DNA of 64,000 nucleotides from Ditylenchus dipsaci (taxonomy: Eukaryota; Nematoda; Chromadorea; Rhabditida; Anguinidae), in contig SADC01000020.1 in assembly GCA_004194705.1 (NCBI GenBank), positions 186,001-250,000 on the forward strand. Reading direction: 5' to 3'. Position numbers and translations under genes: made by a program. Below, in pieces: positions 13,600-25,759 of this stretch. The notes under the pieces were generated by a model. It was not told the DNA's origin, searched no databases, and saw only the letters and a list, made by a program, of their open reading frames with translations. Each line of letters starts with the position of its first letter. The first letter of the stretch is position 1.

Positions 13600-14330
13600 A
13601 AACCAAACCCAAACCTCAAAAATGAAATTCCCAAAAATAAGAAATAAACCATTTTCTCCGGTTTTAAATTTTGCAGGGAATTGGGTTTGTTAGAAACAAA
13701 GTTGCGATTTCACCCACCCAAAAACAAATTCCTGGGGTAGTTACCACCTGGCCAGGTGGATGTCCCCTGGATGACCAAAAGAATTAAAAATTCGTCAAAT
13801 TTAAAAACAAACCCTTTTATCATAGGCAAACTTGTAGGAGTAATTCTGTTTGTTAGAATCAAAATTGCGATTTTACCCACCCCAACACAAATTCCTGGGG
13901 TAGTGCCACCGGGTGAGGTGGATGTCCTCCTGGATGGCCTAAAAAATCAAAATTTCTTAAATTTCTTTGTTAGGACCAAAATTTACATTTCACGATGCGG
14001 ATCGAAAAACACTTTGTATGTATCCTTCGGGTATCTACGTGGCTGCCCGAAAATAAAAAACTTACACAAAATCAAAACAAACTACTTTTCCTGTCCTGAA
14101 ATTGCGTAACGAAACTGGTTTGTTAAGGCCAAAATTGCGATTTTACTCATCCAGTGGCCGAAACCAGGGTGGGTCCTACCTGGTCCTACCTCGTGTAAAC
14201 CCACCTGGATGACCGAAAGGAACAAAAGTTCGTCACATACGAAAATTATCTCTTTACCGTAGTCAAACTTGTGCAGGAAATCCGGTTTGACAGTACCAAA
14301 AGTGCAATATTGGTCAATGTAGCGCTAACA
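13600..14330. repeat. Diverged tandem repeat inside the RPS18-carrying element
   Basis: Three or so copies of a 165-270 bp unit with GTTTGTTAGAAnCAAA, TTGCGATTTnACCCACCC, ATTCCTGGGGTAG and CAGGTGGATGTCC. A related unit occurs near 45280-45480. Confidence 0.6.
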
Positions 14331-18112: not shown

Positions 18113-19268
18113 GCTAGGGGAGATTTGCCAAAAACGAAATTTGCCAAAACGAAATTTGCCAAAACGAAATTTGCCAAACGAAATTCGCCAAAACGAAATT
18201 TGCCAAAACGAAATTCGCCAAAACGAAATTTGCCAAAACGAAATTCGCCAAAACGAGATTTGCCAAAACGAGATTTGCCAAAACGAAATTTGCCAAAACG
18301 AAATTTGCCAAAACGAAATTCGCCAAAACGAGATTTGCCAAAACGAGATTTGCCAAAACGAAATTTGCCAAAACGAAATTTGCCAAAACGAAATTTGCCA
18401 AAACGAATTTTGCCAAAACGAAATTTGCCAAAACGAAATTTGCCAAAACGAAATTCGCCAAAACGAAATTTGCCAAAACGAAATTTGCCAAAACGAAATT
18501 CGCCAAAACGAAATTTGCCAAAACGAAATTTGCCAAAACGAAATTCGCCAAAACGAAATTTGCCAAAACGAAATTTGCCAAAACGAAATTTGCCAAAACG
18601 AAATTCGCCAAAACGAATTTTGCCAAAACGAAATTTGCCAAAACGAAATTCGCCAAACGAAATTTGCCAAAACGAAATTTGCCAAAACGAAATTTGCCAA
18701 AACGAAATTTGCCAAAACGAAATTTGCCAAAACGAAATTCGCCAAAACGAAATTTGCCAAAACGAAATTTGCCAAAACGAAATTTGCCAAAACGAAATTT
18801 GCCAAAACGAAATTTGCCAAAACGAAATTTGCCAAAACGAAATTTGCCAAAACGAAATTCGCCAAACGAAATTTGCCAAAACGAAATTTGCCAAAACGAA
18901 TTTGCCAAAACGAATTTGCCAAAACGAAATTCGCCAAAACGAAATTTGCCAAAACGAAATTTGCCAAAACGAAATTGCCAAAACGAATTTGCCAAAACGA
19001 AAATTTGCCAAAGACAAACAGGGGGACCAAGGCAGTTTTTTACGTTTTTTTTTCGAAATTTTTGGTAAAATAAAGTTTTGTTGTCCACTTAACTGAATCT
19101 TAACTGAAGTTGGAAATTTAAATTAACCGTGCAAGCACCTAGTCATTTTTTCAGATGACCAACGTAAACGTAAAAAAACTGCCTTGGTCCCCCTGTTCGT
19201 CTTTGGCAAATTTCGTTTTGGCAAAACGTACATTTGGCAAATTTCGTTTTGGCAAATCTCCCCTAGCC
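18113..19268. mobile_element. Nested GCTAGGGG element with internal 15-bp minisatellite
   Basis: Starts GCTAGGGGAGATTTGCC, ends GGCAAATCTCCCCTAGCC, with TTTTTCAG on both sides (18105-18112, 19269-19276), an 8-bp target duplication. Left part is the 15-bp array; the right end has about four copies in the opposite direction. Between them lie CAGGGGGACCAAGGC, a unique core (19064-19165) and the inverse of the GGGGGACC block. A second copy is at 24393-25640. Confidence 0.8.
18133..19010. repeat. 15-bp minisatellite, about 58 copies
   Basis: Unit AAAACGAAATTTGCC with variants GAGATTT, AAATTC and GAATTT. Because the unit is a multiple of three and almost stop-free, all strands show long open frames here (repeats such as FAKTK, CQNEI or FWQIS); these are not genes. 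Confidence 0.95.
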
Positions 19269-19612: not shown

Positions 19613-20395
19613 GGTACATGACAGTTCTGTCCCGGACATTTCTGTCCCGACACTTCTGTCCCATTTTCAAATTTACTTATAATTTGCATATTATCCGAAA
19701 TTTAAGTTTAAAAAGCTGCATAAACATAAAGAATAATCACCGAGGATTTTTTTATTGTGAGTATAACAATGTTACAATAAGAAACTAGAAAAGCGCCGCT
19801 GCATTCGCGGCATCTCCACTCACTGAATCCGGACTTTAAGGTGCATAAAAGCTTTCCTTACTACCATTGCCTAAATAATACTATCTAGGTATCACTGAAT
19901 AAGTACCACTATCTGAGTACAATCACCTGGGTACCCTCGCTCGAATACTCCTTCTAGTTCTCCCTTCTAGTTTCCCCTTCTAGTACCTCCTCCTAAGGAC
20001 CACTCCTTGCGTTCTACCACCTCGTTACTCCATCTTGAGTACCTCTCATGGATATTCTTCCACGGGTACACCCAACTGGGTGCCCTTTCCTAAATATCAC
20101 CACGCAGTTACCTCATTTTGGACGCGAGCACCTAGGTAGCCCTTCCTTGCTGCTCCTCCTGCATGCCACCACCTTAATAGCTCCATCTGGTAACACTAGA
20201 TGCTTCCCTTTTCTATGTGCTTCACTCCCGCTACTTCTCAATAGGTATTATTGGTTGATTATTCCTTAGAATGGAATTAGAATTTCAAACTTAAATTTCA
20301 GATAATATACAAATTATAAGTAAATTGGAAAATGGGACAGAAGTGTCGGGGCAGAAATGTCCGGGACAGAAATGTCGGAACAGAAGTGACCGGTT
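19613..20395. mobile_element. Inverted-repeat element with CTGTCCCGGACA ends
   Basis: Left end GTTCTGTCCCGGACATTTCT, right end the inverse. Interior 19880-20190 is a loose tandem of GTACCACTACCTGAGTA-like units. Its right part (20215-20380) recurs at 21334-21500. Confidence 0.6.
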
Positions 20396-21333: not shown

Positions 21334-21500
21334 ATGTGCTTCACTCCCGCTACTTCTCAATAGGTATTATTGGTTGATTATTCCTTAGAATGGAATTAGA
21401 ATTTCAAACTTAAATTTCAGATAATATACAAATTATAAGTAAATTGGAAAATGGGACAGAAGTGTCGGGGCAGAAATGTCCGGACAGAAATGTCCGGAAC
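21334..21500. repeat. Direct duplication of 20215-20380
   Basis: ATGTGCTTCACTCCCGCTAC onward is near identical to the right end of the 19613-20395 element, giving a detached copy about 1.1 kb away. Confidence 0.8.
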
Positions 21501-21751
21501 AGCATGGTTCTTAAAAAAATTTTTATACAACCAGAAAACTTTAACCGTTTTGATCTCTTCACGAAATTTGCTACAAGATAGGTAAAAAATAGGAAAAAAA
21601 ATCGGCATGGCCAGATCATGGTTCATTCTTACAGATTATGTCTTATGAGCAATATAAGCAAAAATAAATAAAATATATATATACCGTATTCACTCTATTT
21701 ATCGCCCACCCTCTAATAAACGACCACCCTCTGATAAACGCCCACCCTTAA

Positions 21752-23708
21752 AGGGGCATGCCCGTGCCCGACACGGTGAAATTTGAATTTCCAAAAGGCG
21801 GGGACCATTTTAATGCGTGAGACCAAAAAAATTCAAATTCAAATTTTCATTTCTATTGTATTTGCTGCTGCATATCAGACGTATGCTCCCTAATTTCATG
21901 CAAATTTTTCCTATCTGTGCTCTCTGGATAAGCATTTTTAAATTTGCTGATCAATTTACCGTATTTATTGAAGTGTGTAGCTGAATGAGGGGGCCTAAAT
22001 GAGTTGAATTGTCAAATTGTTGTATGTGTTGACACTGTCAACGCATGAAATCGCCTAAGGATACAAGAAAACGATTTTGGAAGCAATCGAAATAGCATAT
22101 GAAACATTTTTAGGCTTTTGAATTTGATTACGAAATATTTTGATGAGCTAAGGCATTGCTTTATTAGAAAAACTGATAAGCTAAAAATTATTCAGTAGGT
22201 AGCCCTTCGCGCAAATGATGTCCGAATAATTCGGGACCTAAATCTTGAAAATCCCTATTCTACTTAGGATTTCGTGCAAAGTCGTGAAAAATTGCGGATC
22301 GCACATGAGCAGGCACTTCCATTGAACCGGTACTATGAAAAGTTTTGTTTGCTGGCTGAGAAGAAATTTAACAAAGCGTACTCCCTATAAAATGACCCTC
22401 GACAAAGCGTTGAAATTATGTTGTTAGTTATCAAGATTCGTTTCTCAAAAAGTCGTTTCTCAATGTGTCCAGCAAGATTCTTCACAGTCATATTACTGAA
22501 ATATTTCCGTTTCACAAGCCTAGTATAATGTTTATTCGACTGGACGTCGAAAAACCTAGTCCACTAACAGGAAAAGTTGACTGATTCATTTTTGAATACT
22601 CTCGCATAGGCTATAACTAAAAATAGGTGAAACACACAAGGACAAGAAAAATTAAAGAAAGAGTGCTATTTATTTTCCAGTAATGAAACAAACTTCAGGC
22701 TGATTGGGCTTATTTATTTTCAATTCTGGACCTAAACTTCATCACGACGTCTTCTTTTAATAATTAGGAAAATTTAAAGGGCTTTGATAATATCTAGCAA
22801 CCACGATATTCGACACAGAGTATTTATTTCAACAACAACATAATCCGCAGAAGCTAACGGGTTAACAGAGAAAACATGTTCAATAAAGGCGCTGAGCTGG
22901 TCCATAGTAGACTTGATGTTCAGAGCACGCACATTCTGCCAATTCTTTTTCAACAAGGAAACGAGAAAGTTGATACCCAGGGAAATGTTGGCCACCAGCT
23001 CCTCCTGAGTCATCTCGACGTGGCCAATAGCCACTGACAAGCAGAGCACCTGTGAACTCAGGATATTGTAAACCAAGGAAAAAGCGCAACAACAATTATA
23101 AGCCCACCTTCTTCATCTGAAACTTGACTGTAGCACGAATTTCGTCAATCTTGGAGCTTAGAGTCTCATTGTGGGTGACCACCGAAGGGAACATTCCAGC
23201 CTTGTTGAGCCCAGGACCGAGAATACGTGGAATTTGCTTGATCAAAGACTCTGAGGCAACCATGGAAAAAAGCAACCTTTTGAGGGTCGTAGTTCTTCAA
23301 AGCTATTTGAAGCTCGATGGTCTCACGTAACTTGCGCTTCTTTTCGACAGATAGCTTCAGCACTTCAGCCACACATTTATTAAGCGTATCGCGAGAGATT
23401 TTGCTTCCACTGATTGCTTCTTTTGGTTCGGACTTTTTTCAACCTAAGATTTTTTAAGTTAATTAATTTGCTGACACACCAACAGAGATAACAACAAAAC
23501 TCATGACATAATCGGCGATTCCAAAATGCTTATCCAGAAAACACAGACAGGAAAAATTGCATGAAAATTAGGGAGCATACGTCTGATATGCAGCAGCAAA
23601 TACAATAGAAATGAAAATTTGAATTTGAATTTTTTTGGTCTCGCGCATTAAAGTGGTCCCCACCTTTTGGAAATTCAAATTTCACCGTGTCGGGCACGGG
23701 CATGCCCT
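21752..23708. mobile_element. piggyBac-like TTAA element carrying an RPL10A gene fragment
   Basis: TTAA at 21748-21751 and 23709-23712. Ends read inwards AGGGGCATGCCCGTGCCCGA and AGGGCATGCCCGTGCCCGAC, and the inverted repeats run on for about 185 bases (to near 21935 and 23525). No transposase. The 1.6-kb centre contains an RPL10A-derived block (22880-23405) and about 900 bases I do not recognise (21936-22879). Confidence 0.85.
22880..23405 (-). pseudogene. RPL10A: Ribosomal protein L10a (uL1) gene fragment, transposon-borne
   Basis: uL1 forms the large-subunit L1 stalk. Block 23405-23108 holds [16 protein letters not shown], jumps to [19 protein letters not shown] and ends FQMKK; a 58-base intron (GTGGGC...TTCACAG, 23050-23107) follows; block 23049-22880 holds [11 protein letters not shown] and [16 protein letters not shown]. 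Lesions: about 65 codons missing between NYDPQK and the ESLIKQ region, replaced by 16 bases (23261-23276) that also shift frame; no start ATG, with an in-frame stop just upstream; one base lost after STM, so the PAQRLY ending at 22880 is in another frame. The intron shows it came from genomic DNA, not a processed transcript. Pseudogene inside a transposon; assembly error for the missing centre cannot be excluded. Confidence 0.85.
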
Positions 23709-24344
23709 TTAAGGGCCTATATCTCAGTTTAAAAAAATTATTTTGCAAATCGGTTTTTTGCGTTTTCTTACTTACCACGAGTTTACCTGATTCCACATTT
23801 TAACTTTTGGTTGAGCACCCGAAAATCTCAAAATCGAAATATTCTTTCCCGATTTTTTAAGGGTTGAAAAATAAACGCCCATGGGCGATTAAAAAGTGTG
23901 AATACGGTATAAGCAATCATTAACCAACCAATGATCAACAACTATTAGGCCAGGGCTCTCATTTGGGTTGATTTATCAAAAAATTTTTGATTTTAGACAA
24001 CAATAGCTCTTAAAAATCTTAATTTTTGTAAAAGATTTGTCTAACTTTCGAAAAATTGAGCTGGAAGCCATGCATTAGGCAATCGTAGAAAAAAAGTGGG
24101 AAAAAGATCAGGTTAACTTGAAAAATCGGCTAAACTTCGTTATACCACATCCTACCAAAAGTTGATTTTGACCACTTATTCGTGCTTTTCAGAACGTAAT
24201 TAGTCGAAAAAACATGTTTTTGGGATTGTTAAGTATTTTTTCGAGAAAAAAATTTTTGACCGAAAATTGACGTTTTGCCTTGGGGGACCAAGCTAAACCA
24301 TCATAAAAAGGTACCCAGACACCCCAAAAGATGGGATTTGAACA

Positions 24345-25759
24345 TACCGTATTTCCTCTAATATAAGCCCATGCTCTAATAGAAGCCCACCCGGCTAGGG
24401 GAGATTTGCCAAAAACGAAATTTGCCAAAACGAAATTTGCCAAAACGAAATTTGCCAAACGAAATTTGCCAAAACGAAATTTGCCAAAACGAGATTTGCC
24501 AAAACGAAATTTGCCAAAACGAGATTTGCCAAAACGAAATTTGCCAAAACGAAATTTGCCAAAACGAGATTTGCCAAAACGAAATTTGCCAAAACGAAAT
24601 TCGCCAAAACGAAATTTGCCAAAACGAGATTTGCCAAAACGAAATTTGCCAAAACGAAATTTGCCAAAACGAAATTTGCCAAAACGAGATTTGCCAAAAG
24701 ACAAACAGGGGGACCAAGGCAGTTTTTTTACGTTTTTTTTTCGAAATTTTTAGATTGTGTCCAAACCACCCCAGACCGACCAAAACCACCCCAAACCACT
24801 CAAAACACCAAAACCTCCTAAAAATGTTAGTTCTTTCTAACTACTGCTTTGGGTGGCGGTAAATTGATCCAAAAATTTTTGACCCAAGTGGACGATCACT
24901 TGGTTTAGTTAATACGTGAATTACCCAGTAAACCTGAGGTTGTATTATAGAAAAGATTAAAAATGATATGACTTACAGGAACCCAGTTTTGGAGTAGTTT
25001 CGTATCTAGTAAGGTCTCCAGGTGTATGGAGGTGGTAGTACCAAGAAATTGGTATCCAGGTGGTTATACCAAGGCAGTGACGGGGTATCGGTACTCAGGT
25101 GGAAGTGCTTAGGGAATGGTACTTGGGGGCTGGTAGAATGCGTTTTCTGGGTAGTGGTATCTTGATTGTAGTACTCAGTTGGCAGTACCCGAGTTGCATA
25201 TTAGACCATTAAAACCAAGTGGTCGTTCACTTGGATCAAAAATTTTTACGTTTTTCATGTTCCAAAACTTGTTTTCTGGACTAATTCGGACAAGCTGAAG
25301 ATGGTTTGACAGTGGTAAAATAAAGTTTTGTTGTCCACTTAACTGAATCTTAACTGAAGTTGGAAATTTAAATTAACCGTGCAAGCAGCTAGTCATTTTT
25401 TCAGATGACCAACGTAAACGTAAAAAAACTGCCTTGGTCCCCCTGTTCGTCTTTTGGCAAATTTCGTTTTGGCAAATCTCGTTTTGGCAAATTTCGTTTT
25501 GGCAAATTTCGTTTTGGCAAATTTCGTTTTGGCAAATTTCGTTTTGGGAAATTTCGTTTTGGGAAATCTCGTTTTTGGCAAATTTCGTTTTGGCAAAACG
25601 TACATTTGGCAAATTTCGTTTTTGGCAAATCTCCCTAGCCGCCACCCCTTATTTTTTGACTAAGGTTTCGGAGTTAAGGTCATTTTTGATTGACAATTTC
25701 GAGATTTTTGGGAGGTTGAAAATAGAAGCCCATGGGCTTCTATTAGAGGAAATACGGTA
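24345..25759. mobile_element. TACCGTATT-family element, middle layer of the stack
   Basis: TACCGTATTTCCTCTAATAT at left; TATTAGAGGAAATACGGTA at right. Carries the GGCTAGGGG element. Confidence 0.8.
24393..25640. mobile_element. Second copy of the GGCTAGGGG minisatellite element, itself interrupted
   Basis: GGCTAGGGGAGATTTGCC at left, GGCAAATCTCCCTAGCC at right; flanks GCCCACCC and GCCACCCC are an imperfect 8-bp duplication. Forward array of about 20 units (24406-24705), reverse array of about 12 (25452-25630). The core found at 19064-19165 recurs at 25317-25420, but about 560 bases (24755-25316), including a one-sided AACCAAGTGGTCG family end, are inserted before it. Confidence 0.8.

Follow-up and report, generated by a model that had tools for sequence, protein, structure and literature searches.

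We analysed a 64,000-nucleotide stretch of the Ditylenchus dipsaci genome (the window; C20:186001-250000 in the 227-Mb assembly), in which an inverted-repeat element encloses a broken copy of the RPL10A gene (Table 1). The element is directly bordered by TTAA on both sides. Its inverted arms, about 190 bp long, form a 198-nt alignment with 91% complementarity, and a comparison of the two ends over 185 nt gives 95.7% identity, in agreement with the TTAA flanks and the inverted ends of about 185 bases described in the original prediction. The termini read 5'-AG...CT-3', the left end starting with AGGGG and the right end with AGGGC. The element has inserted into, and thereby split, a TACCGTATT MITE. 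When the flanks were joined and used as a query, 39 of the 40 matches scored among 4281 first-look candidates spanned the junction, the sole exception being the window itself. The letters of the empty site were compared at two loci, L101 and L102; both have a single TTAA, the latter reading CCACCC-TTAA-GGGCC. An Rfam scan of the window returned no match at the gathering threshold.

Table 1. Features of the element and its insertion site, in positions of the window.
Feature	Position	Strand	Remark
Whole element, non-autonomous, Kolobok-like, internally deleted	21752..23708	no strand	1,957 bp
Left TTAA target site copy	21748..21751	no strand	adjoins element
Right TTAA target site copy	23709..23712	no strand	adjoins element
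Left terminal inverted repeat, begins AGGGGCATGCCC	21752..21941	+	
Right terminal inverted repeat, begins AGGGCATGCCC	23519..23708	-	arm start approximate
Left part of disrupted TACCGTATT MITE, TTAA included	21682..21751	no strand	joined-flank search and alignment
Right part of TACCGTATT MITE	23713..23909	no strand	joined-flank search and alignment
RPL10A exon 1, start codon lost (ATC)	23277..23414	-	start codon position 23414
Intron 1 remnant and deletion junction, host codons 47-111 gone	23259..23276	-	junction identical in C479, undeleted in C1228
3' part of RPL10A exon 3	23108..23258	-	start approximate
Retained GT...AG intron of the RPL10A piece	23050..23107	-	
RPL10A last exon, 1-nt loss shifting final codons	22880..23049	-	
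AATAAA, probable poly(A) signal of captured gene	22823..22828	-	homologous stretch in host gene a

The window contains 21 occurrences of TACCGTATT or its complement between 8234 and 61743, one of them within the element itself at 21957. Immediately left of the element lies a 150-bp direct repeat (20215-20364 and 21334-21483), the two copies being 100% identical and 1,119 bases apart. Arrays of the 15-base unit ATTTGCCAAAACGAA occupy 18123-19012 (about 60 copies), 24404-24699 (about 20) and 25452-25630 (about 12); the last is inverted relative to the second, and both of these lie within the TACCGTATT...AATACGGTA interval at 24345-25759.

The gene content agrees with what had been read from the letters: a uL1 fragment with one spliceable intron, some 65 missing codons (exactly 65 relative to the host gene) and a shifted frame, here caused by the loss of a single nucleotide that alters the reading of the last codons. 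Two of the three pieces of the window RPL10A submitted to Pfam matched Ribosomal_L1. Without a start codon, with 65 codons gone and with a shifted end, the window RPL10A is a dead passenger gene.

Full-length RPL10A is present elsewhere in the genome, as two genes lying about 452 kb apart on C1256 (374404-378291 and 827359-830807). Gene b is intact, and the intact host protein is 100% identical to a Ditylenchus dipsaci UniRef entry. Gene a is open apart from one nucleotide missing close to its end, a change that replaces the last residues and is either real or an assembly error; no inverted repeat of the family was found around it in the 3.9 kb inspected. The undeleted layout of the RPL10A element is found in the 2.3-kb copy C1228, which consists of inverted repeat, whole RPL10A, filler and inverted repeat. 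Its match to gene a extends over 977 nt, with 85.6% identity, and takes in the introns and both UTRs. One intron shared by gene a and the element is absent from gene b, and a GC...AG intron is likewise common to gene a and the element. Since the cargo matches the host gene through introns and UTRs, it was captured from genomic DNA; the donor was thus gene a itself or a closely related gene.

The element belongs to a large family. A 20-base stretch of its end occurs 277 times in the assembly, the reversed control not at all, and a search with the element DNA gave at least 113 matches (a lower bound, with 40 scored among 295 first-look candidates). Chance similarity is excluded by these end counts together with a full-length, 96% identical sister on another contig, C479. 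We examined eleven RPL10A-carrying copies (C20, i.e., the window copy, C479, C1228, C1198, C146, C887, C1236, C1133, C828, C69, and C1275), leaving out C64, which is older, incomplete and matches at 78%, as well as C1333 and C163, which match without the gene exons. Both ends are present in nine of them; in C1236 and C1275 the contig stops before the element does. C146 and C1236 have their outer flank in common and therefore represent one insertion, duplicated or assembled twice.

The 65-codon deletion is confined to the window copy and C479 and is absent from the other nine copies. Both lack about 290 bp of the gene and about 75 bp of filler with identical junction letters, and they are sisters at 100% bootstrap with different flanks. 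The recurrence of this junction next to other flanks means that the deletion is real and that the shortened element has transposed again. The idea of a captured RPL10A fragment holds in that part of a host gene was captured, with an intron, by a TTAA-specific transposon. The capture of a fragment as such is not supported, because the relatives retain the whole gene with all exons, introns, UTRs and the poly(A) signal, and the middle was lost later in the window copy and C479. An intact RPL10A frame exists in none of the eleven copies: one and the same pair of stop codons is common to C146, C1198, C1228 and C1236, and other copies have frameshifts, some of them possibly assembly errors.

The same ends enclose three further host genes, SNRPD2, PSMB3 and RPL34. 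SNRPD2 was recognised by reading in L063, L068, L069 and L072, with a Pfam LSM domain in L068; PSMB3 exons lie in L070, L071, L085, L091, L095 and L096, with a Pfam Proteasome domain in L091; and RPL34 is found in L084, L087 and L093, with Pfam Ribosomal_L34e in L084 and L093. C996 and C314 were considered as PSMB3 donors and rejected, being partial copies of about 97% identity without an outer end. For a wider sample, we chose 20 of the 44 exact 33-base ends, hand-picked rather than random and omitting known ends, and took roughly 1 kb inward from each. Six were of the PSMB3 type (L083 by its filler, as its PSMB3 exons lie just past the fetched stretch) and four carried RPL34 (L098 by reading only; it is missing from the RPL34 protein-search matches). 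L100 repeats the short MITE locus of L004, and no gene content was assigned in the 1 kb or so from L081, L082, L086, L089, L090, L092 and L099. The remaining two, L094 and L097, share a stretch that is possibly a fifth captured gene; in L094 it resembles TCP-1/cpn60 weakly (E 0.0033), below the Pfam cut-off, and it was not counted. Genome-wide, protein queries matched 45 times for RPL10A (E up to 1) and, at E up to 0.001, 67 times each for PSMB3 and SNRPD2 and 99 times for RPL34; these are exon matches that include the host genes, with family ends checked for part of them.

TTAA duplication is common to piggyBac and Kolobok transposons, and piggyBac termini are of the 5'-YY type. In a survey of 33 ends from 19 copies or part-copies, TTAA adjoined 32, one end being without it, and all 33 began with RR, as AG or GG. 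According to the part of the source available, 5'-RR...YY-3' termini are what separates Kolobok from piggyBac (PMC9587614). AGGRR, given as the end motif of Kolobok T2-MITEs in the accessible text of PMC6004289, starts 22 of the 33 ends, the others being AGGGC (nine) or GGGG (two); the left end of the window copy fits this motif and the right end does not. Like T2-MITEs, as far as these two sources describe them, the Ditylenchus members are short, lack a transposase, duplicate TTAA and have RR...YY termini, but they carry host genes, which the available text does not mention for T2-MITEs (PMC6004289, PMC9587614). In the portion of PMC11118728 at hand, records of Kolobok-T2 are confined to the B. 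xylophilus lineage and those of Kolobok-H to A. besseyi, with neither recorded from Ditylenchus. No transposase with the family ends was found, and inspection by eye of L063 and L068-L072, which are complete elements, likewise showed none. A profile search for THAP (PF05485) gave no match, its controls being equally silent, and one with PF20700 gave two weak hits unconnected to family ends. Judged by its termini and TTAA, the element appears to fit Kolobok and not piggyBac, and is a putative member of the former.

With a probability of about 0.8, we assign the element to a TTAA-specific, Kolobok-like inverted-repeat family with host genes as cargo (Pack-TIR), as a non-autonomous copy that has suffered an internal deletion. 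Within this multi-gene carrier family, the window fragment is a member that has decayed and become shorter. Against the Kolobok assignment count the transposase searches that gave none with the family ends, the 11 ends that deviate from AGGRR, the one end lacking TTAA and the absence of Ditylenchus from the Kolobok records in PMC11118728. During repair or replication, template switching or gap filling would have placed a copy of host gene DNA between the ends, and a transposase made elsewhere would recognise the ends and carry the element with its cargo to other TTAA sites; one such loaded copy would then have lost its stretch of gene and filler before transposing again to give rise to the window copy and C479. 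The original prediction had instead assumed a piggyBac-type insertion, on the strength of the TTAA duplication. Capture of the fragment by a piggyBac-type MITE would explain this duplication equally, as it is common to both superfamilies, but not the RR...YY termini at every surveyed end; we regard it as improbable, and the piggyBac label is probably wrong. An assembly artefact behind the RPL10A gap is far less plausible still: many copies do differ by single-base indels that may in part be assembly errors, but the junction is the same, letter for letter, on a second contig with other flanks. Least credible of all is the arrival of the gene piece by retroposition of an mRNA, in favour of which we found no point and which is refuted by the introns; like the sequence upstream of the 5' acceptor, these are homologous to host gene a.

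Within the elements, the cargo ATG lies 214–217 bp from the TTAA for SNRPD2, 252–260 bp for PSMB3, 299 bp for RPL10A (C1228) and 451–454 bp for RPL34. A pyrimidine-AG acceptor is located 8–31 nt upstream of the ATG in all four cargo types, at a position matched in host gene a, and each cargo begins a short way upstream of this acceptor; among randomly drawn ATGs, however, about 20% also have such a motif within 50 nt. Trans-splicing is present in Ditylenchus. With an acceptor just 5' of each cargo ATG, it is conceivable that transcription from the inverted repeat and trans-splicing could yield mRNA from a promoterless cargo.

The comparison with host genes carries a signature of strong constraint on the cargo exons. 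Between C1228 and gene a, divergence amounts to 25.9% for introns, 22.9% for UTRs and 8.5% for exons, dN/dS against gene a is 0.036–0.129 in all eleven RPL10A copies, and 23 of the 25 sites at which most copies depart from both host genes are synonymous. The PSMB3 gene of L091 is open across the 204 codons fetched, with three introns starting with GT and ending with AG; substitution stops are absent from the nine PSMB3 copies, several of them partial. The protein encoded by L091 shares 67.8% identity with that of the D. dipsaci host and 68.3% with that of D. destructor, compared with 82.0% between these two, and in a tree it stands beside them (support 94/88) on a long branch of 0.43 versus 0.15 and 0.09. 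For SNRPD2, identity between cargo and host protein is 67.8%, compared with 90.7% between the two host proteins. From these sequence comparisons, the lineages of the cargo seem to be old and to have been under constraint, whether while on the elements or within host paralogues that have since been lost or are missing from the assembly.

The divergence among the copies bears on these two readings. Between RPL10A copies, exons diverge about as much as introns and filler (for instance 5.5, 4.7 and 6.5%, respectively, for C887 versus C1228). Of the nine PSMB3 copies, only L091 could be aligned over its whole length with no indel. The dN/dS values of 0.24–0.83 between RPL10A copies with dS above 0.04 are no proof of selection, because the exons diverge nearly like introns and filler, and those of 0.12–1.13 among PSMB3 copies say little, because the copies differ by few bases. 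We lean towards constraint that predates capture, exerted in host paralogues now lost or unassembled, with a recent capture and a cargo that never worked on the element; the divergence of the exons between RPL10A copies, nearly as fast as that of introns and filler, and the lack of any intact RPL10A frame argue for it. It is likelier than constraint on the elements, but it presupposes that the donor has gone missing in each of three cases, RPL10A, PSMB3 and SNRPD2, and the few matches fetched for the three included no such donor. The family might instead be a mobile carrier of working housekeeping genes, in which cargo genes for the ribosome, spliceosome and proteasome would have been kept open by selection while on the elements, for longer than the age of the present copies, and inverted-repeat transcription with spliced-leader trans-splicing would provide a normal mRNA without a promoter of its own; we find this doubtful. 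If it were true, divergent paralogues of core complexes would belong to the transposons themselves.

In a fungus, a transposon has reportedly amplified a housekeeping gene. In animals, a survey of 100 genomes recorded, in its available text, 370 Pack-TIR cases, four of them multicopy, with hAT and TcMariner accounting for 87.2%; gene capture by inverted-repeat transposons thus appears there as rare and mostly single-copy, and the words Kolobok, piggyBac and nematode are absent from its main text (PMC8277862). As in those Pack-TIRs, so far as this text describes them, non-transposon DNA lies between inverted repeats (RPL10A, SNRPD2, PSMB3 and RPL34), the parent gene resides outside such an element (gene a on C1256 for RPL10A), and insertions have separate flanks, as some multicopy cases do, with the exception of the flank common to C146 and C1236; unlike them, the Ditylenchus family comprises four cargo genes, each in many copies (PMC8277862). 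Ssk-FB4, which the same portion of the survey reports from fly populations beside the four multicopy cases, is similarly a nearly complete Drosophila host gene with introns that moved several times in a non-autonomous inverted-repeat element, but it involves one gene, four copies and 9–10-bp duplications instead of TTAA and several genes (PMC8277862). Turmoil-1 of C. elegans, in the part of its description accessible, is also a nematode inverted-repeat transposon with coding sequence from two host genes, but there fragments lie inside the inverted repeats, whereas here whole genes lie between them (PMC2572040). The literature covered, with most subscription papers outside its scope, held no title or opening of an abstract on gene capture by Kolobok or on the family in Ditylenchus.

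A TTAA-specific family with four multicopy housekeeping genes would be a natural system for studying the mechanism of capture, and would allow one to ask why these genes were taken and whether a moving cargo stays under selection. The counts of RPL34, SNRPD2, PSMB3 and RPL10A genes in the D. dipsaci genome may be inflated by transposons.

Several minor observations concern the wider family. A second group of ends (L001, L002, L003, L005, L007 and L008) has only about the first 40 bp in common with this family, GACACGGAGAAAAGGCGGGGACC..., a similarity that may point to a common transposase. Within 1 kb of one family end at L090, inside or outside the element, lies a hAT dimerisation domain (E 2.6e-6). 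On C853, left parts of an SNRPD2-type element recur at 14034, 19008 and 23623, with a tandem-array-like spacing of about 5.0 and 4.6 kb.
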